DNA of 35,868 bases from a virus (IMGVR_UViG_3300031565_000175:1-35868), one strand, 5' to 3'; positions 9,920 to 35,825 are shown, counted from the stretch's first letter. A program made the numbers and translations. The notes: generated from the letters alone by a model not told the origin.

Positions 9920-10570
9920 ATGCGAAATAAAATAAAAATAGGAGAAGTATTTACTAGATTAACAGTTATTAATGATACTGGCAAAAAAAATAAAAGTAAT
10001 CATAGAATACTTTTATGTGAGTGTGAATGTGGTAATTATTATGAAATAAGTACTGGTAATCTTAGAAGTACTAGAATAAAATCTTGTGGTTGTTTAAGAA
10101 AAGAAAATAGTAGTAAAAGGGCTAAAAATCGAAAAGGAAAACTTCATCCAGCATATAAACATGGGAAAAATTGTAAAAATAGCAAAACATATAGATCATG
10201 GTTTAATATGAAACAAAGATGTATAAATCCTAATACATTTTATTTTAAAAATTATGGTGGAAGAGGTATAATGATATGTGAACGCTGGATGGTATTTGAA
10301 AATTTCTTAGCAGACATGGGGGAATGTCCAAAAGGAATGTCTATAGATAGAATAAATAATGATGGTCATTATGAACCTAGTAATTGTAAATGGAGTACAA
10401 GAAAAGAGCAAGCAAGGAATAGTAAACAAGCTAAATTAAATAAAGATGAAGTTGAAAAAATAAGAATTTTATTAACTACAACAAATTTATTACAAAGACA
10501 AATAGCAAAAATGTTTAATGTAAAACAAGCTACTATATCACAAATAAAAAGGGAGAAAATTTGGTTATGA
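9920..10570 (+). CDS. HNH-type homing endonuclease with C-terminal helix-turn-helix
   Basis: A 216-residue protein of a common phage HNH group. An N-terminal zinc-finger-like part has CECECGNYYEIS and SCGCL (Cys pairs at about 33-37 and 56-58). The nuclease region (about 92-166) holds YRSWFNMKQRC, NYGGRGIMICERW, ENFLADMGECPKGMSIDRI and NDGHYEPSNCKWST. The last 35 residues have a helix-turn-helix (LQRQIAKMFNVKQATISQI). It is paralogous to the shorter gene at 25278, which lacks the helix-turn-helix. The N-termini align (IGEVFTRLTV with IGKRFGKLVV), supporting this start despite the missing ribosome binding site. Its stop overlaps the next start by ATGA. Probably a mobile gene inserted at the head of the recombination operon. 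Confidence 0.85.
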   Translation: MRNKIKIGEVFTRLTVINDTGKKNKSNHRILLCECECGNYYEISTGNLRSTRIKSCGCLRKENSSKRAKNRKGKLHPAYKHGKNCKNSKTYRSWFNMKQRCINPNTFYFKNYGGRGIMICERWMVFENFLADMGECPKGMSIDRINNDGHYEPSNCKWSTRKEQARNSKQAKLNKDEVEKIRILLTTTNLLQRQIAKMFNVKQATISQIKREKIWL

Positions 10571-20800: not shown

Positions 20801-21985
20801 AACTGATGACGATGATGAAGAAGAAGAATAACTAGAACTTGAGCTTGAGCTTGAGGAAGATAATGAGCTTGACGAAGAAGATGAAGATGACGATAGCGAA
20901 CTTGAAGAACTGCTTGACGATAGCGAACTCGAAGAACTTGAACTTGATGAAGATAAAGAACTAGATGACGATGAGGAAGAAGAAGAATAACTAGAGCTTG
21001 AACTGGACGAAGATAATGACGAAGAACTGGAAGAACTGGATAGCGAACTTGACGAAGAAGAACTGGATAGCGAACTTGACGAAGAAGAACTGGATAGCGA
21101 ACTGGACGAAGAAGAAGAACTACTGGATGACGATAGCGAACTTGAAGAACTGGATGAAGATAGCGAACTAGAGCTTGAAGAACTGCTTGACGATAGCGAA
21201 CTTGAAGAACTTGAACTTGATAGCGAACTGGACGAAGAAGAACTGCTTGACGATAGTGAACTTGAAGAACTGCTTGACGATAGTGAACTTGAGCTTGACG
21301 AAGAACTAGTAGAAGAAGATGAAGAAGATGAACTACCAATAGTAATATTACCACATCTTAGACAAAAACTATGTAAAGGACTTCCAGGTGAAGTATGTAT
21401 AATTTTAAGTTCGGTTATACCACCACTAACATAATTTGTCATATTAGATGGTAAATTAAAACCAACTATCTGAAAAGATGTATTAGAAGGAAAATCATCA
21501 CCGACACCAGTTACATTATCAAATGTAAGAGTATTATAATTATAGATTCTTAATTTAATATTATGACCTGGATTACCAATATACCTATATTCAAATAAAA
21601 TAGTATATTGAAAGGCGGGATTCATTCCTTCATATATAATATCAAAATCAAATCCTGGTGTACCAGTACATTCATTCATACAGAATGTATCATCGTCACT
21701 ACAACTACAAAGAGATATATGATCTCCACCACTTGCAGTACACGTATTAACCTGTATAGCAGTAGGACATCCAAAAGGAACAGCACTTGAAGAACTTTCA
21801 CTAGACGATGACGATGAAGAATAACTGCTACTGCTACTTGAGCTTGATGAAGAAATTGATGATGAAGAAGAACTGGACGAAGAACTTAGAGAAGAACTAC
21901 TAGAAGAAACAGATGACGATGAAGATATGCTAGAACTACTAGAAGATGAAGATGCAATTTGGTCAAACCCTATATCCCAAGCCAT
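17879..21985 (-). CDS. Giant poly-serine fibre-like protein, 1368 residues
   Basis: Layout: short N-terminus MAWDIGFDQIA (1-11), Ser-rich stretch (about 12-66), a globular beta-rich domain (about 67-218), a Ser tract of about 1,020 residues, a hinge with LQVPGGGGGGFRKPEWKWFD, a second short Ser stretch, and a C-terminal beta region (about 1308-1368) with TLIVSIEVPQGWYNIPVIIV. The globular domain has about eight Cys (FGCPTAIQVNTC, SLCSCSDDDTFCMNEC, FCLRCG) and looks like a secreted or lectin-type sandwich. The Ser tract is broken by single L, V, E, Y, I, Q, K, R or F every 7-13 residues. AAGGAG precedes the ATG. It lies just downstream of a beta-helix tail protein, so a fibre, adhesin or mucin-like surface coat is inferred. 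No homologue was recognised. Confidence 0.75.
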   Translation of the reverse strand: MAWDIGFDQIASSSSSSSSISSSSSVSSSSSSLSSSSSSSSSSISSSSSSSSSSYSSSSSSSESSSSAVPFGCPTAIQVNTCTASGGDHISLCSCSDDDTFCMNECTGTPGFDFDIIYEGMNPAFQYTILFEYRYIGNPGHNIKLRIYNYNTLTFDNVTGVGDDFPSNTSFQIVGFNLPSNMTNYVSGGITELKIIHTSPGSPLHSFCLRCGNITIGSSSSSSSSTSSSSSSSSLSSSSSSSSLSSSSSSSSSSLSSSSSSSSLSSSSSSSSSSLSSSSSSSSLSSSSSSSSSSSSLSSSSSSSSLSSSSSSSSLSSSSSSSSLSSSSSSSSYSSSSSSSSSSLSSSSSSSSSSLSSSSSSSSLSSSSSSSSSSLSSSSSSSSSSYSSSSSSSSVSSSSSSSSSSLSSSSSSSSSSLSSSSSSSSSSESSSSSSSSSSLSSSSSSSSSSVSSSSSSSSSSVSSSSSSSSLSSSSSSLSSSSSSSSLSSSSSSSSESSSSSSLSSSSSSSSYSSSSSSSSLSSSSSSESSSSSSSSSSLSSSSSSSSVSSSSSSSSSSVSSSSSSSSFSSSSSSSSESSSSSSSSSSVSSSSSSSSSSLSSSSESSSSSSSSSSQSSSSSSLSSSSSSSSISSSSSSSSSSYSSSSSSSSSSYSSSSSSSSSSLSSSSSSSSLSSSSSSSSSSVSSSSSSSSLSSSSSSSSSFSGSSSSSSSSISSSSSSKSSSSSSSSESSSSSSSSSSESSSSSSSSSSSSVSSSSSSSSSSESSSSSSSSSSESSSSSSSSLSSSSSSSSLSSSSSSSSISSSSSSSSLSSSSSSSSQSSSSSSSSVSSSSSSSSVSSSSSSSSESSSSSSLSSSSSSSSSFSGSSSSSSSSVSSSSSSKSSSSSSSSESSSSSSSSSSVSSSSSSSSSSVSSSSSSSSSSVSSSSESSSSSSSSSSLSSSSSSSSLSSSSSSSSISSSSSSSSVSSSSSSSSSSLSFSSSSSSSSSSLSSSSSSSSSSSSESSSSSSSSSSLSSSSSSSSVSSSSSSRSSSSSSISSSSFSGVSSSSSSSSSSSSVSSSSSSQSSSSSSSSESSSSSSSSKSSSSSSSSLSSSSSSSSLSSSSSSSSSSQSSSSSSSSSSVSSSSSSISSSSFSGVSSSSSSSSSSSSVSSSSSSQSSSSSSSSSSSSSSSVSSSSSSESSSSSSSSSSESSSSSSSSLSSSSSSSSVSSSSSSRSSVSSSSSSESSSSSSKSSSSSSFSLQVPGGGGGGFRKPEWKWFDISSSSSSSSSSMSSSSSTSSTSSSSYSSSSSESYSSSSSTLIVSIEVPQGWYNIPVIIVKEQEEIDKKVNINVTLKEDKDMGIKIKSVIAKDKKIDIDIKTIKTR
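18263..21331 (-). repeat. Poly-Ser coding tract with X(Ser)even periodicity
   Basis: About 3.07 kb coding for Ser runs separated by one residue. Run lengths read from the translation are nearly always even: 4, 6, 8, 10 or 12. The only exceptions noticed are runs of 9 beside FSG inserts and one of 15. Codons mix TCN with AGY, for example TCGTCAAGCAGTTCTTC, so this is not a simple DNA microsatellite. Longer copies occur inside: 36 bases at 18567-18602 recur at 18846-18881 (FSGV region), and another FSG unit near 19387 recurs near 19869. Confidence 0.85.
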
Positions 21986-21988
21986 ACT

Positions 21989-22891
21989 TTAACTCCTTGT
22001 TTCCCCATCAATATCATCATCAAATGCATATATACCATCTGCACTTAAATCTGCCCCAAATGTATGTGCTCCAGTATCGCTGCTATCAAGATGATAGTCA
22101 TCGTTGCCTGTGTTGACAAATGTGAATGTCTGGTTTATTCTATTACTTGTACCAGGAGCTGTAGCATCTCCTGATGCATTATTATTACCAGTCCCACCGT
22201 CAAAATCAGTTGAGTTCCCATCACCAAGACAGTTCTTAATATTTAGAGTTCCGGAATCTTCCCAGAAACCTATATCTGTATTTCCTATAGCATTACAATT
22301 ATATATATAACAATTGTTTGATACGCCAACATCAAATCCTTTTGCGGTGTTATTCAATGCCAAGCAATTTATACAATAAACATCATCATCTTGTATTTCA
22401 AAAGCTGCTCTAATAATATTATCATTATTATCACATTCAAGAACTATACACCCAATACAATAAGCTGGCCCTGTTTGAATATCAAATAAAGACCGTGGCG
22501 ACGAATCTGTCATTACAACTTTCCAAATCATATCTTGTACAGTTGCATAAGGTTCATCTAATCTCCAAGAATCTCCAGCTATAGTAATATTAAAAAATAC
22601 ACCATTATTTGGAGTTCCATCATTACCCTGCCAACTTCCTGTTCCTATGGTTCCAGCAGGTCTAATTAGTCTGAAATAAGAGGAGTTAGTGGTTGCCCCT
22701 GAGATGTCGATTTTTAGATTAAAGCTTGTAGCATCGTCATAACATTCAAGTACTTCAGTTTGAGTTAATGAAACAAGATTATTATCAGTAGCTGCTTCCC
22801 AAGTAGAAAGATCAGTATAATCTCTCCCGAATCCACCAGCACCAAATGTGCTTATATTTTCATTAGTTCCTGTACGTCTTGAACTTGCCAT
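21989..22891 (-). CDS. Parallel beta-helix tail fibre or tailspike protein
   Basis: A 300-residue protein. The middle has repeated short strands of beta-helix type rich in Asn, Cys and Gly: YCIGCIVLECDNNDNI, VYCINCLALNNTAKGFDVG, NNCYIYNCNAIGNTDIGFW and TLNIKNCLGDGNSTD, roughly 23 residues per turn. The N-terminal part (DLSTWEAATDNNLV, VLECYDDATSF) and the C-terminal DIDGETR motif are common in right-handed beta-helix phage and environmental surface proteins. No catalytic lyase residues can be assigned. It sits immediately upstream of the Ser-rich gene, whose ribosome binding site lies in its last codons, so the two are probably made together. A host-binding or glycan-binding role is likely. 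Confidence 0.68.
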   Translation of the reverse strand: MASSRRTGTNENISTFGAGGFGRDYTDLSTWEAATDNNLVSLTQTEVLECYDDATSFNLKIDISGATTNSSYFRLIRPAGTIGTGSWQGNDGTPNNGVFFNITIAGDSWRLDEPYATVQDMIWKVVMTDSSPRSLFDIQTGPAYCIGCIVLECDNNDNIIRAAFEIQDDDVYCINCLALNNTAKGFDVGVSNNCYIYNCNAIGNTDIGFWEDSGTLNIKNCLGDGNSTDFDGGTGNNNASGDATAPGTSNRINQTFTFVNTGNDDYHLDSSDTGAHTFGADLSADGIYAFDDDIDGETRS

Positions 22892-23965: not shown

Positions 23966-24892
23966 TTATCTAGTTTTATACCATTGATCCAAGAATTTCT
24001 TATCCTTAGTCTCATAATATTTTTTGACTAGTTCTCTTTTATTTCTCCAGAATGTTTCATCTATGTACTCCGCTGGTGGAGGAATGTCTTTATATCTATG
24101 AGCATAATTCCATTCACCATGTATATGTCTGAATCCCAAGATGTCATACCAAGTTCCTCCAGGCTTATGTACTTGAGTACTCAAAGGATTATTAGGAACT
24201 TTGACTACCTTCAATCCCAACTCTTTAATTGCTACTGCAAATCTGGACTCCGTATTTCCTACCTTCTCCGCATACTTTTCATAATTATCTACAGGTATTA
24301 AGTGATCTTGAAAGTGTTTCATTACTGCTTGAGCGGCTTTTGTTTTAGCTATAAAAGAAGTAGTATTAAAAATCTCTCTTCCATTATTTTCTTCCCATCC
24401 ACACCCCATAATATCAGCGTCACCTAACATCTCCATAATTTGAGGAAATCCTTCTGGCTTCTCCAAAATACAATCTCCGTTAGAACAGAAGACATATTTG
24501 AATCCCCCCATTGTATGCATACCGAATTTAAGTAACCAGAAATAAGGATATAAAACTCCTCCCCATGTTTGATGATGAGGTATTAGAAAAGTATCAATTT
24601 GATCAAATACTTCTCTTCTAGGTAACATAGAATCATATGATATCTCTTTGTTATTAGGATCAAAGTAGTTATCGAATACTACAGTAAGCCAGAATCCTAA
24701 TTTCTTATGAGTTTCTACAGAAGCCTTTAAGAATGGTCTGCTACTTGGATGACTAGTTAAAAGGACTCCCACATCTTTCAATGCGTTAACAGCCCATTTA
24801 TCACAATCGGTATATCCTTTAATAACTTGCTTGGCGTATTGCTTATCTGCTCCTTCTTTCATTTGATTTACATATTCTCTAGTGATTGTCAT
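23966..24892 (-). CDS. GT-A-like glycosyltransferase, paralogue A
   Basis: A 308-residue protein. The Rossmann start VGVLLTSHPSSRPFLKASVE (41-60) and FKYVFCSNGDCILEKPEGF (131-149) resemble a GT-A nucleotide-sugar transferase, with NGD at 138-140 in the place of the metal-binding DxD. Later it has TSFIAKTKAAQAVM and TWYDILGFRHIHGEWNYAHR. The gene at 28089 shares these blocks (FEYVFTVNGDCIWDKPKG; TWKQLLGYRNLGGEHKW), so the two are paralogues. The start overlaps the DUF1353 gene stop by ATGA. The acceptor is unknown; a tail or fibre glycan is possible because it directly precedes the fibre operon. Confidence 0.62.
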   Translation of the reverse strand: MTITREYVNQMKEGADKQYAKQVIKGYTDCDKWAVNALKDVGVLLTSHPSSRPFLKASVETHKKLGFWLTVVFDNYFDPNNKEISYDSMLPRREVFDQIDTFLIPHHQTWGGVLYPYFWLLKFGMHTMGGFKYVFCSNGDCILEKPEGFPQIMEMLGDADIMGCGWEENNGREIFNTTSFIAKTKAAQAVMKHFQDHLIPVDNYEKYAEKVGNTESRFAVAIKELGLKVVKVPNNPLSTQVHKPGGTWYDILGFRHIHGEWNYAHRYKDIPPPAEYIDETFWRNKRELVKKYYETKDKKFLDQWYKTR

Positions 24893-25281
24893 AACATATT
24901 CCTCCTATCTCTCAATCTTAGTTTTATCCATTTATACCATCCAAATAGATAAACGCTCCAATATAAACAAAATATTTTCCATCTCTTTACTCCTAGTACT
25001 ACTAATGCTTCTTTAAAAATTCTTTCACATTCCGATTTCTTGGCATAATGTACTTCATACATCCAATCATGAAGAACAGCCGCTTTTGCATGATTATCTA
25101 TTGGAGAAATAATGCTCCAGAAAATTCTAGGAACTGTAGCGAAATCAGTTAAAAAATTCTCTGGAATTATTATAACCTGTAAAGATGGATATGTTCCAAC
25201 ATGATATTCAAATGGTTCTATTAGACGAAATAGGTTTTTACCTACTACTTCTACTATACATGGTGTAGTAAATTGACTCAT
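24889..25281 (-). CDS. DUF1353-family phage protein
   Basis: A 130-residue protein with the DUF1353 hallmarks: ENFLTDFATVPRIFWSIISP at 42-61, then NHAKAAVLHDWMYEVHYAKK with the conserved HDW, and RIFKEALVVLGVKRWK. A hydrophobic stretch (IFCLYWSVYLFGWYKW) is near the C-terminus. Such proteins are common in phages, often near lysis or tail genes; their activity is unproven. It overlaps neighbours at both ends by ATGA. Confidence 0.82.
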   Translation of the reverse strand: MSQFTTPCIVEVVGKNLFRLIEPFEYHVGTYPSLQVIIIPENFLTDFATVPRIFWSIISPIDNHAKAAVLHDWMYEVHYAKKSECERIFKEALVVLGVKRWKIFCLYWSVYLFGWYKWIKLRLRDRRNML

Positions 25282-25751
25282 ACTTTTATTCTTCTATTAT
25301 GTCTTTGAACTATAGGAGTAGCCCACCTACAATTATCAAGTTCATAATGACCATCATTATCAATTCTGTCTAGAGTCATCCCTTCTGGACGTTCTCCCAT
25401 GTCTGCAAAGAAGTTCTCAAACACAATCCATCGTTCACATATCATTATTCCTCTACCACCATATATAGTAAATTTAACATTATTTTCATTCAAACATCTT
25501 TGTTTCATGGATTTCCATGAATTATATGTTGAAGTTCCCCATTTATCATGAGTTATAATTTTTTCTTTATGTAAACACCCACATGATTTAGTTGATCTAT
25601 GTTTTTTATTAAACCTAGTGGTTGATATTTTTATAAGATTTCCACAATCACATTTACATTCCCAAATAATACAACCATCATTTTTTCTTTTATCAGTTTT
25701 TCTTAAAACAACTAATTTTCCAAATCTTTTTCCTATTAAATTATAACTCAT
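25278..25751 (-). CDS. HNH-type homing endonuclease, short paralogue
   Basis: A 157-residue paralogue of the endonuclease at 9920. It has IGKRFGKLVVLRKTDKR, the Cys pairs ECKCDCG and SCGCL, YNSWKSMKQRC, IYGGRGIMICERW, FFADMGERPEGMTLDRI and NDGHYELDNCRWAT. It ends soon after the nuclease core and lacks the helix-turn-helix of the other copy. It is wedged between the peptidase and DUF1353 genes with overlaps at both ends, as expected for an inserted free-standing homing gene. Confidence 0.85.
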   Translation of the reverse strand: MSYNLIGKRFGKLVVLRKTDKRKNDGCIIWECKCDCGNLIKISTTRFNKKHRSTKSCGCLHKEKIITHDKWGTSTYNSWKSMKQRCLNENNVKFTIYGGRGIMICERWIVFENFFADMGERPEGMTLDRIDNDGHYELDNCRWATPIVQRHNRRIKV

Positions 25752-26616
25752 CTTTACCTCTTTCTTTGATAATCTTTCTAGTTACTTGTAAGTCACGACA
25801 AACCCAAGCATCCCACATGTAGTCATTGATATATCTGTATGGAAGATATCCATATCCTTCATCTCCCCATCCAGTACTCCAACTATTTTTAAACTTAACT
25901 AGTTGTGTGTCTTCATTATATCCAACCGCACAAACGGCATGTCCACCAAGAAGATTATTTGGATTAGCAGGATAGTTAACTACTCCGTTTTTCGGATTGA
26001 ATATTTCTTCAAAGCAAGCAATGCCAATTACTACTGGTTGATCATCCAGAGCCACTTTTAAATCTTCAATTCCTTCTACTCTCCAATAGGAATCTATCAA
26101 GCCCCACTTTGCTATAAGTTTAGCCCATGATTTAGGTTTACCTTTAAATCTATCATCATATTCCCATCCAGCTTCACATGGAATTCCTATCTTATGGAGT
26201 ACTCTCATTGCACACCTAATACTTGTTCCTTCTGAATCAGGCCAAGGATCTATGGTCTTTGATTTCCAATATACCCATGCTTCCGATAAATCATAGTGAT
26301 CTTCTTTTCTAGTGTAATCTTTACCTTCTAGTAGTACTTCTTGCATATGTTCTTTTTGTTCTTGATATTCTTTCATTGCCGTTACAGCAAATCCTACACA
26401 AGATCCAAGTCTACCTTGATCCTTTACAGGACTCATATACGGAGTCCAATCTACAGAAAGAGAAACATTATAATGCTTTCTTTCATAAAATCTTTTCTCG
26501 CAAAATAATTGATGATAATCTGTAGTCATACCATGTCCACAATGAGAACATTTCAACTCTGCTACTTTGTAATCTCTTTCATCTGGTAAATCTTTTTGTA
26601 AATCTAATTTATACAT
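25741..26616 (-). CDS. Papain-like (C1 family) cysteine peptidase
   Basis: 291 residues from the ATG at 26616, which follows GGAGGT by four bases; earlier in-frame ATGs lack such a site. Near the N-terminus LPDERDYKVAELKCSHCGHG adds a CxxC pair and a further Cys (C39), a possible zinc finger. The peptidase core has Q67 and C73 in PVKDQGRLGSCVGFAV, H226 in LGGHAVCAVGY and N244 in KFKNSWSTGWGDEGYG, so the catalytic set is complete. No signal peptide is visible. Its binding site lies within the last codons of the radical SAM gene, so the two are coupled. The target could be a virion protein, a host protein or a modified peptide. Confidence 0.88.
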   Translation of the reverse strand: MYKLDLQKDLPDERDYKVAELKCSHCGHGMTTDYHQLFCEKRFYERKHYNVSLSVDWTPYMSPVKDQGRLGSCVGFAVTAMKEYQEQKEHMQEVLLEGKDYTRKEDHYDLSEAWVYWKSKTIDPWPDSEGTSIRCAMRVLHKIGIPCEAGWEYDDRFKGKPKSWAKLIAKWGLIDSYWRVEGIEDLKVALDDQPVVIGIACFEEIFNPKNGVVNYPANPNNLLGGHAVCAVGYNEDTQLVKFKNSWSTGWGDEGYGYLPYRYINDYMWDAWVCRDLQVTRKIIKERGKDEL

Positions 26617-27496
26617 GTCTACCTCCATTGTAATAACACCCCATTCCACATTTATTTATTAATTCACAATGTTGACATTTTTTATTTAATTTAATATTGT
26701 CGATTTTCTTCTCTCTACTGTTCTGTACCATTTCATTAAGTTCTGGAATTGACTTGTTTAATATAGTTCCTAATTTTATTCTTGTTTGATTGCAGTAGTA
26801 TAGGTCAAAGTTCCAGTCTATAAGCCCTATTTCTACGCATTTACAGGAACTAAATATTTTGGTAGGTAAAGATAATTTTTCAAGTTCATAGTTTATTTCT
26901 TTTGTGAAAAAACATAGCGGTAAATTATGATCTAACTGCCAGCGCATTTTTCTCTTGTTAAGTTCTGGAACTATTATTTTTGTTGCTTCTATCCATGTTT
27001 TCCTATAGTCATTGAATTCCTCTTCATCGAAAATATTCACTTGTGTATCAGGTGAATATACAAATATTGATTTTGGATGAGTATCCATACACTTCATCAT
27101 TTTGTCGATTACTTTTTCTGTATCATTTTTTGTTATAACAAAATGAAGCACTTCAAAATCCTTCTTTGGATCAAATGTATATCCATTTACTGTATATGAT
27201 ATTCTATTGCCAAACCGTTTTACTATCCTGTCTATATTTATACCATTTGTAAATAAACTCACCGTAAAATAATGTTTTAATCCTTCTTGGATGATATCCA
27301 TAATTCTCGGATGAATACTAGGCTCACCTCCCATGATCTTTAAAGAGGTATATTCTAAGTACTCCGTATTCCTTCTCATGAAATCTATAAGGATATCTGC
27401 ATCCATTTCATTCTTGTTTCTTACGTTTGCATTGAAGCAATGACTACAAGATGCATTACAGTTTTCAGTCAATACTATTCTATGAGCCATTACCAT
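26609..27496 (-). CDS. Radical SAM protein with SPASM-type C-terminus
   Basis: A 295-residue protein. The 4Fe-4S loop is CNASCSHC (C13, C17, C20), followed by GGEPSIHP (56-63), the usual SAM-contact motif. The C-terminus is Cys-rich in SPASM style: FSSCKCVEIG, FDLYYCNQTR and KKCQHCELINKCGMGCYYNG, enough to bind one or two extra clusters. SPASM enzymes often modify peptides or proteins (thioether or carbon-carbon bonds, sactipeptides) or activate sulfatases. GGAGA precedes the ATG, which overlaps the upstream gene by 7 bases. It is coupled to the papain-like peptidase downstream. No precursor peptide was found in the window. Confidence 0.88.
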   Translation of the reverse strand: MVMAHRIVLTENCNASCSHCFNANVRNKNEMDADILIDFMRRNTEYLEYTSLKIMGGEPSIHPRIMDIIQEGLKHYFTVSLFTNGINIDRIVKRFGNRISYTVNGYTFDPKKDFEVLHFVITKNDTEKVIDKMMKCMDTHPKSIFVYSPDTQVNIFDEEEFNDYRKTWIEATKIIVPELNKRKMRWQLDHNLPLCFFTKEINYELEKLSLPTKIFSSCKCVEIGLIDWNFDLYYCNQTRIKLGTILNKSIPELNEMVQNSREKKIDNIKLNKKCQHCELINKCGMGCYYNGGRHV

Positions 27497-28077
27497 TTTA
27501 TTTCTCCATCAAATATTAGATGGACGATATTCTTATTTTTCTTTATGATATCAAATTGTCTTAGATTGGAATGATTAATTACCATAATTGTTTTGTCTTT
27601 TATCATGTTATGGTTTTCTTTTAAAAAATATGAAGAAGATACTCCATGAAAAGTCATATCATAATAAAAATACCTATTAAGATATTCTTTATATATTGGA
27701 TTATGATCATAGCAAATTATCCATTCCCATTCTTTAACCATTTGAGAAATAAGAATATCAAGTCCTCTTCCCACTTCTCCTATACAAAGAACATCTGCAT
27801 CGTCTTTTATTTTTTTAAGATGTTCATAAGCTTTATATTTCAGTTTAACATGACTAATAATAAGATTATTGATATATCCTGGAGAATCTTTAAATTCAGG
27901 AGGTACTTCTTTTCTAAATGAATCTGTACCTTCAATCATACATCGACACATATCCATAGTCCAATTATCGGCTGTATATCTCTCTTCTCCATGTCCTGCC
28001 GCTTCTTGTGTTACATTATCTGGAATTAGATTTTCTATTAAATGTTTATAAAAATTTTCTATGTTTTCTTTTTGCAT
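27490..28077 (-). CDS. Rossmann-fold methyltransferase-like protein
   Basis: A 195-residue protein with strong AAGGAG site. The SAM-binding-like loop is DVLCIGEVGRGLDILISQMV (about 94-113), then WEWIICYDHNPIYKEYL with an acidic residue at the end of strand 2. It ends HLIFDGEIKW, overlapping the radical SAM gene by 7 bases. An N-terminal TADNWTMDMCRCMIEG stretch is unusual. The core is consistent with class I methyltransferases or a related nucleotide-binding fold; motif IV is not clear. The function is unknown, but it is closely linked to the radical SAM gene. Confidence 0.5.
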   Translation of the reverse strand: MQKENIENFYKHLIENLIPDNVTQEAAGHGEERYTADNWTMDMCRCMIEGTDSFRKEVPPEFKDSPGYINNLIISHVKLKYKAYEHLKKIKDDADVLCIGEVGRGLDILISQMVKEWEWIICYDHNPIYKEYLNRYFYYDMTFHGVSSSYFLKENHNMIKDKTIMVINHSNLRQFDIIKKNKNIVHLIFDGEIKW

Positions 28078-28088
28078 TTTTTTTCTCC

Positions 28089-29093
28089 TTAATCTTTATT
28101 CATAAAGTCCAAGTCAAACCTATTGAACAGACCCTTCCTTTCTGAGTCTGGCCCAAGTTCTTTTCTTTTAGAGTCATCATATAAAACACTATCTCCGTAA
28201 TGTTTCAAAGTATGGTACTTTCTATTATAATAAGAGTCTTCTCCTTGATCCCAATACATATACAAATATCGTCTATCTTGTGTAAGATAGAATGGAAGAA
28301 GAGTAGTCTTCTCATGTTGACTTAAAAACTCTCCCCTGTTTCTTAAATCGAAATATTTTATAGGTAGTGGTTCAAGATGTTCCAATACAGACCATTTATG
28401 TTCCCCTCCTAAATTTCTGTAACCTAGTAATTGTTTCCATGTACTATCTTGATGATAGGAACTATAATGATCTATTGCTCCAGCGTGTTGATGACCTTGA
28501 GGGTATTTAGCTTGCAGGGAAGGAACTTTAACCTTTATCTTGTACAATAAAGCCCAATCACGAAGAAGTACCTCTGGTGAGTAGGATTCTGGTATATTAT
28601 GCGCCAGATTCTTTCTTATATAAGAAACGAAATCCAGGAAAGTATGGCGTTTCCAGATAACGCTACAAGTATGAATGATCCCATTTGAGCTTGAAGACAT
28701 GATCTCATTGTCTCCTATTAATTCAATAATGTCTTCTACTCCTTTCGGTTTATCCCAAATACAATCTCCGTTTACTGTGAAGACATACTCAAAATTCTCA
28801 AAAAGATTAATTATACCAGCACCATATACTATATCCCATAGCCAACCGTTTCTTTTTTCTGCTCCATAAGTTTTATGTTTGAATGTCCATGAGTGAGGAA
28901 TAGCAAAGATGTCTTCTGGAATTGTTCCTGTATGCCTATCCATTGACGATATAACATACTTTCCAGAGTTGACGTACCCTGATAGAGTACTTTTTAAGAA
29001 CGTCAAATGTCCATCGAATGACGTAACAATTATAGCCATATTAGAATCGACCAAAGGATTATTTTCTGTAAATCTATCACTAGTTGCTACCAT
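28089..29093 (-). CDS. GT-A-like glycosyltransferase, paralogue B
   Basis: 334 residues from the ATG at 29093, chosen because GGAGG lies nine bases upstream; the ATG six codons before it has none. It shares key blocks with the gene at 23966: MAIIVTSFDGHLTFLKSTL at the start, FEYVFTVNGDCIWDKPKG with NGD at 108-110, and TWKQLLGYRNLGGEHKW. The C-terminal 70 residues are aromatic and basic (YLTQDRRYLYMYWDQGEDSY). It probably transfers a sugar with a metal-linked nucleotide donor. A palindromic TATAAATA pair lies upstream. Confidence 0.62.
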   Translation of the reverse strand: MVATSDRFTENNPLVDSNMAIIVTSFDGHLTFLKSTLSGYVNSGKYVISSMDRHTGTIPEDIFAIPHSWTFKHKTYGAEKRNGWLWDIVYGAGIINLFENFEYVFTVNGDCIWDKPKGVEDIIELIGDNEIMSSSSNGIIHTCSVIWKRHTFLDFVSYIRKNLAHNIPESYSPEVLLRDWALLYKIKVKVPSLQAKYPQGHQHAGAIDHYSSYHQDSTWKQLLGYRNLGGEHKWSVLEHLEPLPIKYFDLRNRGEFLSQHEKTTLLPFYLTQDRRYLYMYWDQGEDSYYNRKYHTLKHYGDSVLYDDSKRKELGPDSERKGLFNRFDLDFMNKD

Positions 29094-29133
29094 AAACCTA
29101 AACCTCCACATATTTTTATATTTTTCCTATCTT

Positions 29134-29145
29134 TATTTATAAATA
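29134..29145. promoter_or_regulatory. Overlapping divergent late-promoter boxes
   Basis: TATTTATAAATA (29134-29145) is a perfect 12-bp palindrome that contains TATAAATA on both strands: plus 29138-29145 for the gene at 29172, minus 29141-29134 for the gene at 29093. CTAT and ATAG flank it, extending the symmetry. Both genes would thus share one bidirectional late promoter site. Confidence 0.5.
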
Positions 29146-29171
29146 TTATAGTAGCAGAGGAGGAATTTGAG

Positions 29172-29954
29172 ATGTTTAATTGGAAAAAATCTTTATTTGT
29201 TAGTATCTTAACAGTAGTAATTGCGTTTGCTTCATTCTTTATGATAACTGAATCAGCTAGGTATTATAGGAATTTCTATGAGGTAGGTGCTTGGCAACCC
29301 TTATATTTAGCGGCTTTGCTGGAATTGTTTGTACTATCACTTGCTGTTATTAGAATAGGAAAGTCAAAGATGTTTCTTTTGGTACAGAAACTAATTATGA
29401 TAGGAGTATTTTGCTCCATTATTTTTGCGGCTGGTATGCAAGCAGTTAACCCGACTTTAGAAAGTTTGGCTCAAGTGACCAAACAAGAACAACTAGGTGA
29501 GATCCTTCAAAAAGAATATGACTCTCTTATAGAAGATAGAGCCGTGTTTGATAAGCAGAAGCAAAAGACCCGAACCGCTATCTCCACAATGGAAAGGAAG
29601 AAGATTGTAGAGGATATGAAGAAGCTATTCGATCAAGACGTTGAGACTGATACAGGAAGAGTAGCATTAGTAAATATTTTACTACTTTTCAGTATCCGAT
29701 TTCTGGTACAGATAGCTAATATATTTTGCGCTTCTATGATGGGAGTTTATTTCAGGTATAGTGAAAAGGTTGAAGAAGAGTTATCAGATAAAGAACTGGT
29801 AATGAAAATACATCCTAAAGCTGAATGTAAATGGAGAGGAATACATAAGAAGTATTGTGTATTCAATGACGATATTATGACTAAAGGAATAGGAGTAGGA
29901 ACAACTCCTAAGAAAGCATGGGAAGACGCTTATCGAAAACTGTCTAAGATCTAA
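29172..29954 (+). CDS. Four-TM membrane protein with internal coiled coil
   Basis: A 260-residue protein and the only plus-strand gene in the right half. GAGGAGG lies before the ATG. TM segments are at about 8-25, 43-61, 66-90 and 164-190. Between TM3 and TM4 a long charged helix (KEYDSLIEDRAVFDKQKQKT) makes a coiled coil of about 60 residues. The C-terminal domain (about 205-260) has the basic AECKWRGIHKKYCVFNDDIM and TPKKAWEDAYRKLSKI. It may be an inner-membrane remodelling, exclusion or lysis-timing protein. Its own late-type promoter suggests separate control. No family was recognised. Its end overlaps the convergent methyltransferase by 4 bases. Confidence 0.6.
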   Translation: MFNWKKSLFVSILTVVIAFASFFMITESARYYRNFYEVGAWQPLYLAALLELFVLSLAVIRIGKSKMFLLVQKLIMIGVFCSIIFAAGMQAVNPTLESLAQVTKQEQLGEILQKEYDSLIEDRAVFDKQKQKTRTAISTMERKKIVEDMKKLFDQDVETDTGRVALVNILLLFSIRFLVQIANIFCASMMGVYFRYSEKVEEELSDKELVMKIHPKAECKWRGIHKKYCVFNDDIMTKGIGVGTTPKKAWEDAYRKLSKI

Positions 29955-30547
29955 ACTTTTTTCCTCACCATTGTAAGCCCTACATCAAAAGCCGATCTGG
30001 TAAATGTGAAGATATCTAATACAGTTCTCATATGGCTTTCTTCTAGATCTTCTATTAGATAGAAAACATCACCACATTTCTCTGGTACAGTCCATGCTTC
30101 ACTAGGTGGACTGGTATCATGTAAAAATATATAACCACCTTTGACTAACTGCTCCCAAGTATTATCAAAATCTTTTTTAACTTGTTCGTATGTATGATCT
30201 CCGTCAATGAAAGCTAAAGCTATTTGAGGTTTGTTTGCCATTGCATCTTTAAAGAAATCATCAGACTTTCCATTATAAACTTCGGAATTTTTCCCGAAAT
30301 ATCCTTTAGTGTTTTTCATATTCTCAACACCGCTTTTAGAATACTCACAATGAAAACAGATTCTATTATACTTCTCTGCCAGTTTAGATAGGAATATAGA
30401 AGATTCACCGCAACCTATTTCTATGATATTTCCGTTAGTATAATTGAGTACATAATCACAAAGGACAGCTAGCAATCCCCATCTATCCCAAAAAAATTCC
30501 CCTTCAATAACTTGTTCATACAAATTTTTTAATCCTGGATGTTCCAT
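29951..30547 (-). CDS. Class I SAM methyltransferase (Methyltransf_24-like)
   Basis: A 198-residue protein with NIIEIGCGESSIFLSKLAEK (motif I, about 40-59), RICFHCEYSKSG (motif II strand), and IALAFIDGDHTYEQVKKDFD then GGYIFLHDTSPPSEA (motifs IV-V). The FIDGDHTYE pattern is typical of Methyltransf_24 enzymes, which often methylate sugars or small molecules. It overlaps the upstream small gene by TAATG and the plus-strand membrane gene at its 3' end. Near other glycan genes, a sugar O-methyltransferase role is plausible. Confidence 0.75.
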   Translation of the reverse strand: MEHPGLKNLYEQVIEGEFFWDRWGLLAVLCDYVLNYTNGNIIEIGCGESSIFLSKLAEKYNRICFHCEYSKSGVENMKNTKGYFGKNSEVYNGKSDDFFKDAMANKPQIALAFIDGDHTYEQVKKDFDNTWEQLVKGGYIFLHDTSPPSEAWTVPEKCGDVFYLIEDLEESHMRTVLDIFTFTRSAFDVGLTMVRKKV

Positions 30548-30759
30548 TACTCCCCTTCAAACTTCTTACGTGGTCTGTATTGCCTTTTAAAATCTTCTAT
30601 AGGAAGAGTAGCTGTTTCACCTGTAAAATGCTCATATAGCACCGATCCTGCTACTATATCAGTTAGCGTTACCTCTATCGGCCCATTCTCTGGATCTTCA
30701 ATAGTTACCCTTTGCCCTATAAGATCATAAAATCCTTTATCTATTTGTGTTCCTAGCAT
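30547..30759 (-). CDS. Small beta-rich protein, 70 residues
   Basis: GGAGGTAATAATT precedes the ATG. The sequence MLGTQIDKGFYDLIGQRVTI and DPENGPIEVTLTDIVAGSVL suggests a small beta-barrel, SH3-like, with a basic tail (PIEDFKRQYRPRKKFEGE). It is coupled to the methyltransferase by TAATG. No function can be assigned. Confidence 0.55.
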   Translation of the reverse strand: MLGTQIDKGFYDLIGQRVTIEDPENGPIEVTLTDIVAGSVLYEHFTGETATLPIEDFKRQYRPRKKFEGE

Positions 30760-30771
30760 AATTATTACCTC

Positions 30772-32157
30772 CTATTCTATTACCTCATATAAAGTTTCCG
30801 AATTTAAATTATTATCTACAATGTCTTCTTCCATTAACAGTTTCCAGCGAATAGGAAGAAAATTAGAATTTACATGAAATGACCAAAAATGATTTACGAA
30901 ATCTTTTTTATAACATTGTCCTTTTTGTTTTATGTAGTTATATACATCTTCATATTTTTTGATATCTTTAGTAATTGAAATTTCTTTTAACACATTCTCA
31001 ATAATATTGTCAAGCGGTTTTATTTTAGAAATTATTCTTTGTTGCTTCATTAAAATTTCCTGTAACATCTCTGGATTATCTAAAATAGAATCAATAATTT
31101 TTTCCAGATCTGAAAAATTATGATAGAAATTTCCTTCTCCAAAAAATGACTTATAAAAATCACCATCCGTAGATGGTAGTATAACTGGACATCCGTTAAG
31201 TATGGAATCCAGTACAGCCATATTCCAAGTAGAATAATCTAAATGCGTACATACAGAGAACATAGACTTTGATATTAGATATCCATATGACTCATCCTTT
31301 ACTGTCTTAAATTTTATATACGGCTTATCAATCAAATCATAATCTGATATTTTTGTATCAGTTATCCAAATACAAAAATCTTTTCTTTTCTTATATAAGG
31401 ATTCGGCTACATTAAAAAACATTCTCCAATTTGTAGAATTATTTAATCTATGATTAAATAAAATTATCTTTTTTTCTGGAAGAGTTATTTCTTCATTACC
31501 AAAAATACTAGGTGGTGGATTAAAATATATTACTTTAGAAGAATCGACTTCTTCTTTTAAATTATTTTTTACTTCATTTCTGAAAAGCTCAAATGCATAT
31601 TCAGAGTGAAATAAATTAAAAGTAGATTTTAGAAATCCATCATATTGTCTCCAGAAGTAACCACCAAGAGCGGAAGAAAATTTTCTGGATCTTTCACAAT
31701 CAATCCAATGATAATAAGAAAAAATAATTGGCAAATCTCTTCTTTGATTATATAACCATGTCCAAATGTTTGCTGATACTTCTGGCTGATTGTTTATTAC
31801 TATATCAATGTCTTTAGTATAGGGATATTCTCTTTTTAAAATGTTACCATAAAATTCATATCTATTCTGGTGGATGCTGGTAGAATATGGATATGGTATT
31901 GTTGTAATATTTTTGTTTGCACTCAAAAACCAGTCAACGTCTTTTATCTTATCTGGAATTATCCAATCAAATCTCCAATTACTAGGTAAAGATTTTAAAA
32001 GATTTTTTGTGAAGATAAATCCGCTGTCTTTGTAGTATAAAAATTTTTTGCTTATTTTATCAACAACTAGTGGATTAGAAAAAACTAATACTCTTAAATT
32101 TGGATATTTATGTTTTTGGGGAATTTCCTTTTTGATGTTGAAAAATAACTCATGCAA
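30772..32157 (-). CDS. GT-B-like glycosyltransferase
   Basis: About 461 residues. The longest frame opens at a GTG (32208) inside the aminotransferase gene, but AAAGGAGG before a TTG at 32157, directly after the aminotransferase stop, marks the likelier start (LHELFFNIKK). The N-terminal half has Rossmann-like strands (YPNLRVLVFSNPLVVDKISK; DIDIVINNQPEV). The C-terminal half has KKIILFNHRLNN (a GT-B hinge-type start), and FSVCTHLDYSTWNMAVLDSI then NGCPVILPSTDGDFY, the donor-binding pattern of family 4-type enzymes. It should transfer a sugar from a nucleotide donor. It is coupled to the aminotransferase, pointing to an amino-sugar glycan. Confidence 0.68.
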   Translation of the reverse strand: MHELFFNIKKEIPQKHKYPNLRVLVFSNPLVVDKISKKFLYYKDSGFIFTKNLLKSLPSNWRFDWIIPDKIKDVDWFLSANKNITTIPYPYSTSIHQNRYEFYGNILKREYPYTKDIDIVINNQPEVSANIWTWLYNQRRDLPIIFSYYHWIDCERSRKFSSALGGYFWRQYDGFLKSTFNLFHSEYAFELFRNEVKNNLKEEVDSSKVIYFNPPPSIFGNEEITLPEKKIILFNHRLNNSTNWRMFFNVAESLYKKRKDFCIWITDTKISDYDLIDKPYIKFKTVKDESYGYLISKSMFSVCTHLDYSTWNMAVLDSILNGCPVILPSTDGDFYKSFFGEGNFYHNFSDLEKIIDSILDNPEMLQEILMKQQRIISKIKPLDNIIENVLKEISITKDIKKYEDVYNYIKQKGQCYKKDFVNHFWSFHVNSNFLPIRWKLLMEEDIVDNNLNSETLYEVIE

Positions 32158-32158
32158 T

Positions 32159-33271
32159 TTACCATCCTCCTTTAATTGCTTCAACAATATAGGATCTATC
32201 CTCTTCACTTACCCAATATCCTACTGGTATACAAATCATCTTATCAATTACTTCTTCCAGCATAGGCAAATCTCTTTTGAATTCTTTGAAGCAAGTATGT
32301 TTATCATTTCTTTCATGAACCCTTGATACTGCTATACCATTGCTACCCATCATATGAACAAAAGAAGTTCTATCTTCGACTAGTACAGTAAAAAGCCAGT
32401 AAGACGATCTCCTATCTTGTTCTATTTGAGTACATTGTATTCCATCAATATCACTAAATACATCTTCATAGTAATCGGCATTTTCTCTGGCAGTTCTTAC
32501 GTTCTCATCTGCATGATCCATATTAGCCATTCCTATTGTAGCACATACATCATTCATATGATACTTATATCCCCAATCTAAAATATCTTCTTCACAGCGC
32601 ATATCTTTTCTAGGGGATTCACGGTCAATGCCATACCAACGCAATAGTTTAGCCTTGTTATAATCATGTTGACTTCTTGTACATAAAGCTCCACCATCAA
32701 CACTAGTCATATGCTTGATTGCTTGAAAACTAAACATTGCAAAATCTGAATACTCACACTTTCCAATTACAGAATCTTGATATGTAGATCCCCAAACATG
32801 AGCGCAATCTTCTATCAATGTCAAATTATGATCTTGAGATATATTATGTATTTCTTCCATGTCACAGGGATATCCCCCCCAATGTACAACCATTATTGCT
32901 TTGGTTTTATCGGTAATATTTTTCTCTATCGAAAGAGGATCTATATTAAAATCTTCTCTGACATCAGCCCAAACTATTTTTCCACCATGCATTAGAATAG
33001 GCATGTTAGTAGCCGTACAAGTTAACGGAGTAGTAATTACTTCATCTCCTTGCTTGACTCCTGCTAAACGTAGAGCCAGACTTAATCCATGAGTACCAGA
33101 GGATAAAGTTAAGACATTTGGATTGTTGAATTTCTTCCAAAGATGAGTTTCGAATTCCGCTACCTTTGGGCCTTGACCGATCCAGCCGCTATGTAAAACT
33201 TTTAAAAGTTCCTCATCTACAGCAGGATTCATTGTAACTTTAAATAGTGGTATTTCTTTTATACATTTCAT
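32159..33271 (-). CDS. DegT/DnrJ/EryC1/StrS-type sugar aminotransferase
   Basis: A 370-residue PLP enzyme of the family that makes amino sugars (UDP-4-amino or dTDP-amino sugars). It has SGWIGQGPKVAEFE (28-41), TLSSGTHGLSLALRLAGV (55-72), IEDCAHVWGS (Asp155 for PLP N1) and FSFQAIKHMTSVDGGAL with K186 as the Schiff-base Lys. The C-terminal half has YWLFTVLVEDR and SRVHERNDKHTCF. All key residues are present and the length is typical. It overlaps the DUF4326 gene by ATGA and ends in the glycosyltransferase binding site. It would transaminate a nucleotide-4-keto sugar for the adjacent glycosyltransferases. Confidence 0.9.
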   Translation of the reverse strand: MKCIKEIPLFKVTMNPAVDEELLKVLHSGWIGQGPKVAEFETHLWKKFNNPNVLTLSSGTHGLSLALRLAGVKQGDEVITTPLTCTATNMPILMHGGKIVWADVREDFNIDPLSIEKNITDKTKAIMVVHWGGYPCDMEEIHNISQDHNLTLIEDCAHVWGSTYQDSVIGKCEYSDFAMFSFQAIKHMTSVDGGALCTRSQHDYNKAKLLRWYGIDRESPRKDMRCEEDILDWGYKYHMNDVCATIGMANMDHADENVRTARENADYYEDVFSDIDGIQCTQIEQDRRSSYWLFTVLVEDRTSFVHMMGSNGIAVSRVHERNDKHTCFKEFKRDLPMLEEVIDKMICIPVGYWVSEEDRSYIVEAIKGGW

Positions 33272-33561
33272 TTTTTACTCCATAGTTTCCAAGGATCATC
33301 TTCTATTAACTTGACTAGTATATCTCCATGACAATCTTGTGGTTTGCACCAGCAAGCAAGAGCCTTACCTTTAAGCTCTGGTAATGCATCAATAAGATCT
33401 TGTCTGTCTTTTTTAATATACTCATAATATTTATCAAGACATTCTTTTCTGTTCCCATCTCTACTAATCTTAAATGGATTTCCCCATTTAGTAGGTCTTC
33501 CGATATAGACAACTTCTTTATCACCACTATAAGTAGATATGTTAACACAAATAGTTTTCAT
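33268..33561 (-). CDS. DUF4326-family protein
   Basis: A 97-residue protein with the family signature: VVYIGRPTKWGNPFKIS near the start, a central helix ECLDKYYEYIKK and LKGKALACWCKPQDCHGDIL at the end, with the CWCxPxxCHGD motif. Found in many phages; the activity is unknown, though Cys/His clustering suggests metal or nucleotide binding. It overlaps both neighbours by ATGA. Confidence 0.85.
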   Translation of the reverse strand: MKTICVNISTYSGDKEVVYIGRPTKWGNPFKISRDGNRKECLDKYYEYIKKDRQDLIDALPELKGKALACWCKPQDCHGDILVKLIEDDPWKLWSKK

Positions 33562-33764
33562 ATATCACTTACCTTTCTCTGGTTTCTATAATCAATAGAT
33601 CTTTCCTGTACTTTTTTAGAATCCATCGTTGAAAAAACTTCTACTACCTTCCAACCATCATCATCTTTTAGTTTTACATAGTTTCCGACTTTAGCAAACT
33701 TTTCAGGAATCCAACTATATTGAAAAGTAATTCCTTTTTGTAATTTGCATTGTCGATGATTCAT
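33558..33764 (-). CDS. Conserved-type small phage protein, 68 residues
   Basis: A 68-residue basic protein: MNHRQCKLQKGITFQYSWIP, EKFAKVGNYVKLKDDDGWKV and SIDYRNQRKVSDI. This pattern (CKLQKG ... WIPekfA ... LKddDGW ... dYR) is one I recognise from many phage genomes as a hypothetical protein, with an SH3-like feel. It is linked to the upstream gene by TAATG and to the downstream one by ATGA. Function unknown. Confidence 0.65.
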   Translation of the reverse strand: MNHRQCKLQKGITFQYSWIPEKFAKVGNYVKLKDDDGWKVVEVFSTMDSKKVQERSIDYRNQRKVSDI

Positions 33765-34249
33765 TATATCGAATCCACATCTACAAAATACTTCTCTAAA
33801 AGTTGACAGGCTTCATACTCATCATTGACCCATACGTTTACGGTTTGCTGTACGAATGGATGCTGACAGATATATGATGATAAGTCATCAGCAAAAGCTA
33901 TTACTGCTTTATCAGGACTGTCATAATACCATGACAATTCAAAGAATGATCCAAGCAGAGGTTTATCAGGATCATATTGATTCATATTAACCATTGCTAT
34001 AGTTGATCTATCTACGTAGCTTCTGTCTTTAGGAACTAGTAAATCAATCCCCCAACTTCTGCTTTTCTTCTTAACAGCATATTCCTTCTTCTCTAAAACA
34101 TTCTTATTAAAGGGATTAGAGCAAGGATTAATAAAACCAATACTTTTACATTCTCCAGTTTTAAAATAATCAATTACATTTTTTCTCCATTGGTAGGTTA
34201 CTTCAAATTTCGGTGAAATTTGCCCAACTAGATATACAAGTTCTTTCAT
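33764..34249 (-). CDS. Nucleoside 2-deoxyribosyltransferase-like protein
   Basis: A 161-residue protein starting MKELVYLVGQISPKFEVTYQ, the strand and loop used by the 2-deoxyribosyltransferase fold. DLLVPKDRSYVDRSTIAMVN then PLLGSFFELSWYYDSPDKAV follow the family pattern (D-x(n)-NxDxxDxx ... GtxFElgwA) in a weak form. AGGAAGG precedes the ATG. These enzymes break or swap the N-glycosidic bond of deoxynucleosides. In phages they may salvage nucleotides or hydrolyse odd nucleotides. The catalytic Glu (FE) is present. Confidence 0.6.
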   Translation of the reverse strand: MKELVYLVGQISPKFEVTYQWRKNVIDYFKTGECKSIGFINPCSNPFNKNVLEKKEYAVKKKSRSWGIDLLVPKDRSYVDRSTIAMVNMNQYDPDKPLLGSFFELSWYYDSPDKAVIAFADDLSSYICQHPFVQQTVNVWVNDEYEACQLLEKYFVDVDSI

Positions 34250-34261
34250 AATAACACCTTC

Positions 34262-34504
34262 CTATATTATTTTATCCATTAACATTGTTACTGCTCTAGT
34301 AACACTTAACTTATCATAATCTTTTTTTGGATCTTTTTCATGATCATTTCTTTTCTTCCAATTTCTTATTACAATTCCTGCTAAGAAAATTAGTAATGCC
34401 GCTGAAATGTTTACTAACAAAGGAAACATATAATACTTCATTACTATAAGTAACCAACTATCAATTGTATTTAAAATTAATCCATCTGTTAATATATGTA
34501 TCAT
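34262..34504 (-). CDS. Small membrane protein, 80 residues
   Basis: One or two hydrophobic stretches: ILNTIDSWLLIVMKYYMF (weak) and PLLVNISAALLIFLAGIVI (strong TM, about 28-46), followed by a basic cytoplasmic part (RNWKKRNDHEKDPKKDYDKL) and a short helix. The ATG overlaps the methyltransferase stop by ATGA. Function unknown. Confidence 0.6.
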   Translation of the reverse strand: MIHILTDGLILNTIDSWLLIVMKYYMFPLLVNISAALLIFLAGIVIRNWKKRNDHEKDPKKDYDKLSVTRAVTMLMDKII

Positions 34505-35136
34505 TTTATCCTCTTTAGATAACCTTTCGGATTGAACGTCATCATATACTTTTCACATTCAGAATCAGCTTTCCATGAATCATCATGATCTTCTAAAAAG
34601 TCTTCTACCGCTTCATATGGGCCTTTCCCCCATTTCCAAGGAACAGGATGACCATTAGCGTGAGTGTCTTCTACTATCATATAAGAATCTACAGGAACTA
34701 GCGTAGAATACATGTACATCTCTTTTCTTACATGTTCAAATCTATGATCAGAATCCAGAATGACTATATTCTTTTTTCCTTTTACTTGATCTTTAATAGA
34801 ATCAAATATTATTGGATTAGTACTACTTCCATGTAAAAATTTAATTCTATTAAAAAGTTTTTCAGGAATTATTCCCCCATCACATTTAGATTCTATATCA
34901 CAAGTGATTACTTTTCCATGACCAATTATCTCCATAATAGAAGCATAGAAAACAGCCGCTCCACCTTTAGCTGTACCAGTCTCAATTACAAAGTCTGGTT
35001 GAATGTTCCATATAAGTTCCTGTAGTATAAATGCATCGAATGGAAGTTTATAGCAAGGCACACCTAGCCATTTTGTCTTCTCCCAAATTCTACTTGTCTC
35101 ATAATGTTTGTGAAATTCATTTATAGCTGTAATCAT
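34501..35136 (-). CDS. CmcI-like (cephalosporin hydroxylase family) methyltransferase
   Basis: A 211-residue protein: WLGVPCYKLPFDAFILQELI, DFVIETGTAKGGAAVFYASI (SAM loop), GKVITCDIESK, KNIVILDSDHRFEHVRKEMY with the LDSDH motif, and YMIVEDTHANGHPVPWKWGK. These are hallmarks of the CmcI/rhamnosyl O-methyltransferase group. They typically methylate sugars on polysaccharides or natural products. GGAGGG before the ATG lies inside the microprotein gene upstream. With the neighbouring DegT and glycosyltransferase genes this supports a methylated glycan pathway. Confidence 0.85.
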   Translation of the reverse strand: MITAINEFHKHYETSRIWEKTKWLGVPCYKLPFDAFILQELIWNIQPDFVIETGTAKGGAAVFYASIMEIIGHGKVITCDIESKCDGGIIPEKLFNRIKFLHGSSTNPIIFDSIKDQVKGKKNIVILDSDHRFEHVRKEMYMYSTLVPVDSYMIVEDTHANGHPVPWKWGKGPYEAVEDFLEDHDDSWKADSECEKYMMTFNPKGYLKRIK

Positions 35137-35139
35137 AAA

Positions 35140-35214
35140 TTAATACCCTCCACATATTATTATTATACCAATTATTGCAAATAAACCTTCTATTACTACT
35201 TTTATTTCATTCAT
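35140..35214 (-). CDS. 24-residue single-TM microprotein
   Basis: The ATG at 35214 follows GAGGTGA at five bases and reads MNEIKVVIEGLFAIIGIIII then CGGY and TAA (35142-35140). It is one TM helix with a short acidic/basic N-terminus. The stop lies within the next gene's ribosome binding region. The good binding site in a gap otherwise lacking a gene supports it, though its size leaves room for doubt. Confidence 0.5.
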   Translation of the reverse strand: MNEIKVVIEGLFAIIGIIIICGGY

Positions 35215-35219
35215 GATTT

Positions 35220-35825
35220 TCACCTCTTAAAAAATAAAGTCATTGAAGGAAATGCAGTAAACACTTGAGCCTTGAACTCTGGATGAGTTAAAGTTGAATT
35301 TACTACCTCTGGTGCTATCGGTCTTCTATCATGTTTTATCATCCATTCTACTTTATCACGTTCTGGACTTCCCCCTTCGAAAGCAATGATACCACCAGAA
35401 GAAATTTTTGATCCCCAATGATCTAGAGTTTTTCGTAATATATCTCCATCATTTGAAATATCCATATGAAGAAAATCAACCTTTCCATCTGCAAAGTATT
35501 GATAAACTTCAAGCGCATCTCCGTAATGTAGATTTACATATCTATTAAGAAGATTGCCTTGATCCCTCAACATTTTCGCTACATCTTTAAAAGTACCATG
35601 CTTATAAGTATATTCTTCCCATAAGTCATAAGCTATAAATTTATTATCACATCCCATCTTCTCATGATTAAATCTTAGAGCATGAGCTATATGAAAAGTA
35701 GAAAATCCATCTAGCACTCCACACTCAATAACAAATTTAGGTCGATGAGCTAATATCAACCCTCTAAGAAGACCACCGAAATTATTTTTAATATAACTAC
35801 TTCTCATAGGACTTTCTATTTCCAT
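35220..35825 (-). CDS. Class I SAM methyltransferase, MT24-like
   Basis: A 201-residue protein with GAGGAG before the ATG. KFVIECGVLDGFSTFHIAHA is the SAM loop, FIAYDLWEEY the motif II region, VDFLHMDISNDGDILRKTLD motif IV, and GGIIAFEGGSPERD motif V. The layout matches Methyltransf_24 enzymes, as at 29951. Probably part of the sugar-methylation set with the CmcI-like gene just downstream. It ends a few bases before the microprotein gene. Confidence 0.75.
   Translation of the reverse strand: MEIESPMRSSYIKNNFGGLLRGLILAHRPKFVIECGVLDGFSTFHIAHALRFNHEKMGCDNKFIAYDLWEEYTYKHGTFKDVAKMLRDQGNLLNRYVNLHYGDALEVYQYFADGKVDFLHMDISNDGDILRKTLDHWGSKISSGGIIAFEGGSPERDKVEWMIKHDRRPIAPEVVNSTLTHPEFKAQVFTAFPSMTLFFKR

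Follow-up and report, generated by a model that had tools for sequence, protein, structure and literature searches.

The virus contig IMGVR_UViG_3300031565_000175 of the IMG/VR database, whose full length of 35,868 bases is referred to here as the window, carries on its minus strand a block of genes that runs from a gene encoding a serine-rich (poly-Ser) protein at 17879-21985 to the contig end. This block contains a cassette of predicted glycosyltransferases (GT), methyltransferases and a sugar aminotransferase. On balance, and with some reserve, we favor the reading that the cassette O-glycosylates the poly-Ser linkers of virion fiber proteins with a methylated 4-amino sugar. An earlier note on this DNA had proposed that the phage places a glycan on its own poly-Ser fiber. 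The association between both elements proved recurrent and nearly specific, while the glycan and the enzyme activities stay at the level of prediction. The link to the fiber, which formerly relied on proximity, now extends to distant relatives, and control loci bearing a DegT aminotransferase gene almost entirely lack it, although some cassettes have no poly-Ser gene.

Conservation of the cassette and association with poly-Ser genes

Scans with profiles of the transferases recovered about 35 distinct IMG/VR virus contigs with the cassette. The order CmcI, DegT, methyltransferases, GT1 and GT2 recurs in them (GT1 and GT2 being the paralogous transferases found in the window at 28089 and 23966, respectively), with GT2 identity falling to about 25–45%. 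The scan of cellular genomes with the GT9 profile gave a single contig of a metagenome-assembled genome (MAG), which carries the whole cassette and a poly-Ser open reading frame (ORF) 1.8 kb past GT2. The neighborhood is thus conserved in other poly-Ser phages, a check that had been suggested with the original proposal. With the GT2 profile, cellular genomes yielded no relative. In addition, no cultured relative was found, since tblastn of GT2 and of the GT9-like protein against 50,697 records of isolated phages gave no match.

About 28 distinct contigs with GT2 were at least 20 kb long, and 23 of them had a clear poly-Ser ORF; among the others, G096 was ambiguous, G090 was weak, and G105 was weak and partly read. 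The association was measured by requiring at least 22 Ser in 30 residues within ±10 kb, using as controls those phage loci that have a DegT relative (46–60% identity) but neither GT1 nor GT2, over an equal ±10 kb span. Poly-Ser was near 19 of 31 cassette loci versus 1 of 63 DegT-only loci (Fisher p = 7e-11, a nominal value as the sequences share kinship). When GT2 was clustered at 60% identity, 10 of the 12 clusters kept poly-Ser nearby. A reverse sample of poly-Ser contigs was chosen by the Ser-codon DNA pattern alone, ignoring the cassette, with a pattern of roughly one-half sensitivity. Among the matches listed, the GT9-like gene was present in 8 of the 19 poly-Ser contigs with a length of 28 kb or more, versus 0 of 17 controls (p = 0.003). 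It was also found in distant poly-Ser phages without a full GT2 (G011, G015, G022, G037, and G047). Relatives of DnaB, used as a clade control, were chiefly short fragments and gave little power; all the contigs are fragments and absences are therefore weak evidence.

Genes of the cassette

All the ORFs listed in the earlier note were found in their places on the minus strand. As to their identities, the paralogous GT-A-like pair and the DegT, CmcI and Methyltransf_24 genes stood, whereas the GT-B assignment of 30772 is weak. The acceptor candidate and the cassette genes are as follows.

17879-21985, minus strand: poly-Ser protein of 1368 amino acids, proposed acceptor, 73% Ser
23966-24892, minus strand: GT2, putative transferase of GT-A fold, best conserved gene of the cassette (AlphaFold2 model, VIA comparison, invariant motifs)
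28089-29111, minus strand: GT1, paralogue of GT2 (homology to GT2; alignment of 26 relatives)
29951-30547, minus strand: Methyltransf_24-type methyltransferase (PF13578, 63.5 bits; in 17 cassette loci)
30772-32208, minus strand: possible GT-B transferase, clade-specific (PF13524, E = 0.0077, under cut-off)
32159-33271, minus strand: DegT/DnrJ/EryC1 sugar aminotransferase, AtmS13/CalS13-like (PF01041, 289 bits)
34501-35136, minus strand: CmcI/rhamnosyl-O-methyltransferase-type methyltransferase (PF04989, 189 bits)
35220-35825, minus strand: Methyltransf_24-type methyltransferase, final gene before the contig end (PF13578, 53 bits; in 21 cassette loci)

The paralogous products of 23966 and 28089 share 26% identity (E = 2e-17), and they matched no transferase family in Pfam or PHROG and none by PDB sequence profile. 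The AlphaFold2 model of 23966, made with 31 relatives, has a confident GT-A fold, with a predicted local distance difference test (pLDDT) of 93.8 and a predicted template modeling score of 0.90, and its residues 38–278 matched many GT-A enzymes in VIA with Z of 12–13. For 28089, the GT-A fold is assigned by its homology to the modeled 23966. However, GT-A-like nucleotidyltransferases match the 23966 model with nearly equal score and, as a consequence, glycosyl transfer cannot be concluded from its fold by itself. N138 and D140 (NGD) as well as R255-H256-x-H258 are invariant in 31 GT2 sequences; NGD occupies the usual place of the DXD metal motif but differs from the canonical one, and we take the NGD and RHxH positions to correspond to the metal- and donor-binding sites of GT-A enzymes. 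The third candidate, 30772, matched Glyco_trans_1_2 (PF13524) at the E-value given above, the PDB search returned no relative for it, and its homologues are confined to the closest relatives (77% in G001 only). Its start probably lies further in, given the overlap with 32159, and its GT-B assignment is only suggestive.

In relatives, the cassette opens with a protein of about 900 amino acids located where the window stops, the contig end falling where this largest cassette gene should begin. The protein is encoded directly upstream of the 35220-type methyltransferase in L008, L017, L035, and L058. Its N-terminus is weakly GT9, its middle part is weakly similar to S-adenosylmethionine (SAM)-binding domains, and its C-terminus is GT4 (PF00534). 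For its N-terminal 395 residues, AlphaFold2 gave a model of moderate quality (pLDDT 70.6). With this model, the top 17 matches of Foldseek were all TibC, followed by WaaF, WaaC and another GT9 enzyme, while VIA gave Z of 18.2 for a generic GT9, 16.7 for TibC and 15.7 for WaaC. The GT9-like domain has a conserved IGD and four conserved Cys (C326, C332 and C340 invariant, C363 nearly so) in the region of the TibC iron finger, where local pLDDT is low. The E. coli enzyme TibC transfers heptose to autotransporter serines and bears a four-Cys iron finger at positions 339, 342, 358, and 370, so that the spacing differs from that of the phage domain (PMC4358343). The GT9-like fold, the IGD and the four-Cys region are what the phage domain has in common with the bacterial autotransporter heptosyltransferases (BAHT) TibC and AAH, associated with TibA and AIDA-I, respectively. 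The acceptor of these enzymes is a serine in a fiber-like surface protein, as poly-Ser is proposed to be here. Unlike BAHT, the phage enzyme is phage-borne, fused to GT4 and a possible SAM-binding domain, and encoded within a larger amino-sugar and methylation cassette, and there is no detectable sequence similarity between both. The GT9/GT4 protein of one contig (G028; L051:1532-5446) bears a LAGLIDADG intein.

The product of 32159 matches PF01041 over its full length (289 bits), so it is an intact DegT aminotransferase. Its closest solved relatives are AtmS13 (structures 4XAU/4ZWV, about 320 bits) and CalS13 (about 280 bits). Both are nucleotide-sugar 4-aminotransferases to which 32159 is similar over the full length, although they belong to antibiotic pathways and 32159 is a phage enzyme. 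Lysine K186 in its active-site region (SFQAIKH) is invariant across 7 relatives. The DegT ORFs of G097 and G098 have an insert of about 300–400 amino acids near profile position 225, possibly an intein. The methyltransferase encoded at 34501 exceeds by far the PF04989 (CmcI/RMNT) cut-off (189 versus 23.2 bits) and matches the CmcI structure 2BR3 (E = 5.5e-4). However, it fails the NCBI equivalog for rhamnosyl O-methyltransferase (165 bits, cut-off 400).

Concerning the donor sugars, the L008 cassette contains genes resembling both halves of HldE (heptose-7-P-kinase-like and heptose-1-P-adenylyltransferase-like, with 236 and 154 bits, under the equivalog cut-offs) and a dTDP-glucose 4,6-dehydratase-like gene (288 bits, under cut-off). 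These similarities suggest that at least one relative augments the supply of donors of the ADP-heptose and 4-keto-sugar types, while others would depend on the host for them. Neither the priming phosphotransferase family PF02397 nor the flippase family PF01943 was found in 20 cassette contigs, which may be incomplete, whereas positive controls were detected. The lack of these lipid-carrier and flippase families and the TibC-like fold fit the glycosylation of a cytoplasmic protein.

The poly-Ser protein

The poly-Ser protein contains 73% Ser overall and 87% within the tract, which consists of S8-X and S10-X repeats surrounding a folded domain of small size and is followed by a basic C-terminal tail. 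All six Ser codons are present in the window gene, 726 TCN and 280 AGY being intermixed. Because TCN and AGY cannot interchange by one silent step, this codon usage suggests that serine itself is probably under selection. Contigs G001 and G005 carry poly-Ser relatives at the equivalent place. SPRY, laminin-G or CAP domains are found on some poly-Ser proteins and would suit fiber and receptor-binding proteins. In these phages, poly-Ser is spread over the genome rather than limited to one fiber gene: G029 has 19 tracts, G028 has 7 and G007 has 10 (53–84 kb region listed).

The Ser runs of at least 4 between interruptions are mostly of even length, with even-to-odd counts of 111:8 in the window, 73:4 in G001, 76:2 in G010 and 77:8 in G047, although the runs are not independent, since they undergo tandem duplication. 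The bias is also listed for G005, G006, G007, and G093, but it was not seen in G029, G022, and G035. In the window the codon classes are unphased to the Ser pair, so the bias cannot be put down to a simple hexanucleotide repeat. A search of the literature collection used here found nothing relevant on poly-Ser in phages.

Proposed mechanism and points against it

The identities of the genes, their folds, their conserved order and the specific co-occurrence with poly-Ser were observed; acceptor, donor sugars, linkage, order of the steps and benefit are what we infer in the following scheme. First, in the host cytoplasm, the TibC-like GT9 domain of the fusion would put an initial sugar on the serines of poly-Ser. 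An ADP donor would probably supply this sugar, either heptose or a similar one. Next, the GT-A pair (28089 and 23966) and the GT4 domain would extend the glycan with a 4-amino sugar that the DegT enzyme produces and that the CmcI and Methyltransf_24 enzymes methylate. In this way, the virion would acquire mucin-like linkers that are protected.

Several data weigh against this scheme. Its glycan and its enzyme activities are predictions from genes and models. The GT9/GT4 fusion enzyme lies outside the window itself, which moreover encodes no complete donor pathway. The likeness to TibC is one of fold only, taken from a moderate model for which VIA places a generic GT9 first, and sequence profiles did not detect TibC for the GT9-like domain. 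As regards the association, G089 (37 kb) and G091 (120 kb) have the cassette without poly-Ser, and the poly-Ser genes of G006 and G007 are distant from it. In the reverse sample, GT2 was present in just 4 of 41 poly-Ser contigs, among the matches listed, so poly-Ser commonly occurs without the cassette. Finally, the distance from the GT9-like gene to poly-Ser within contigs was not below random (p = 0.25), a lack of significance due to the abundance of poly-Ser stretches, of which a contig may have up to 19.

Gram-positive bacteria also have transferase genes clustered next to that of a Ser-rich protein: their serine-rich-repeat adhesins are glycosylated via GtfA/GtfB clusters. The likeness is one of gene layout, and the transferase families are expected to differ from those of the phage cassette. 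Virion glycosylation by phage-encoded transferases has been proposed for mycobacteriophages such as Maravista, where two transferases and a capsid target are involved, as opposed to the multi-enzyme sugar pathway and poly-Ser fibers considered here (PMC11256854). If glycosylation of poly-Ser is true, some phages would own a protein O-glycosylation pathway for virion fibers with simple poly-Ser acceptors, whose transferase families carry no Pfam or PHROG name. It would explain the purpose of long poly-Ser stretches in phage proteins and illustrate how virions may gain protection from proteases or host surfaces, and the pathway would be a compact means to glycosylate Ser. A bolder extension, which we consider speculative and rather improbable, is a widespread, uncultured phage group with mucin-like virions, in which a TibC-like Ser transferase and the two GT-A families that lack a Pfam or PHROG name would decorate the poly-Ser linkers of as many as a dozen virion proteins or more with a methylated 4-amino-sugar glycan, the even Ser runs in the clade of the window reflecting a two-residue register of the enzyme.

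Alternative explanations

The main rival is that the cassette adds heptose and methylated amino sugars to the lipopolysaccharide (LPS) core or O-antigen of the host, acting against superinfection or altering receptors, the fibers being merely co-located. The typical role of GT9 enzymes is heptosyl transfer in the LPS core, both WaaC and WaaF match the fold closely, and phage sugar genes beside fiber genes are common, many such loci being present in the DegT control set. However, the poly-Ser association is specific to the cassette (19/31 versus 1/63), the families for priming transferase and flippase are missing from the 20 contigs, and Foldseek ranks TibC above both Waa enzymes. We judge the modification of host LPS unlikely, albeit a serious contender.

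Less probable still, and distinctly so, is that other virion proteins (the capsid or other fiber domains) are glycosylated and that poly-Ser is a plain flexible linker. This would agree with the two contigs whose cassette lacks poly-Ser, G091 having other fiber-like proteins after the cassette, and with poly-Ser often occurring alone, but it leaves the specific co-occurrence unexplained. It seems very improbable to us that the cassette and the poly-Ser expansions are functionally unrelated, both being old co-inherited features of a few phage clades. The shared ancestry makes the counts non-independent and the proximity test was non-significant; nevertheless, the association survives dereplication (10/12 clusters) and the GT9-like gene occurs in distantly related poly-Ser phages without full GT2. 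Finally, phages do glycosylate DNA and the GT-A and GT-B folds are compatible with the modification of phage DNA bases by these transferases, but this can practically be dismissed as the searches made recognized no base-hypermodification gene in the window or the cassette, and the amino-sugar and O-methyl steps and the TibC-like fold better suit a protein or glycan acceptor.

Other genes of the window

Besides the genes for poly-Ser glycosylation proposed above, the block includes the following genes, the last three of which were absent from the earlier gene list.

21989-22891, minus strand: fiber-like protein (by reading only) of no family, between the poly-Ser gene and the transferase
25741-26649, minus strand: papain-family (C1) peptidase (PF00112, 55 bits)
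26609-27496, minus strand: radical SAM protein with SPASM-like C-terminus (PF04055; TIGR04085 SPASM just under cut-off)
27490-28077, minus strand: conserved protein with homologues in 11 cassette loci, methyltransferase-like by reading only

The peptidase and radical SAM genes (25741-27496) are located between GT2 and GT1. The former is retained in G001–G005, G007, and G088, and the latter also adjoins GT2 in three distant contigs (L051, L052, and L055). The Pfam search gave no match for the 27490-28077 protein. Two ORFs, at 9920-10570 (plus strand) and 25278-25751 (minus strand), were HNH-endonuclease-like by reading, and a relative of the first was found within the L041 cassette. The replication block of the window is T4-superfamily-like, with polB, DnaB and a UvsW-like helicase. 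It also includes an anti-restriction protein (3850-4692, minus strand, PHROG 7245) and a release-factor-like protein with an RF-1 domain (9463-9816, minus strand, PHROG 3122).

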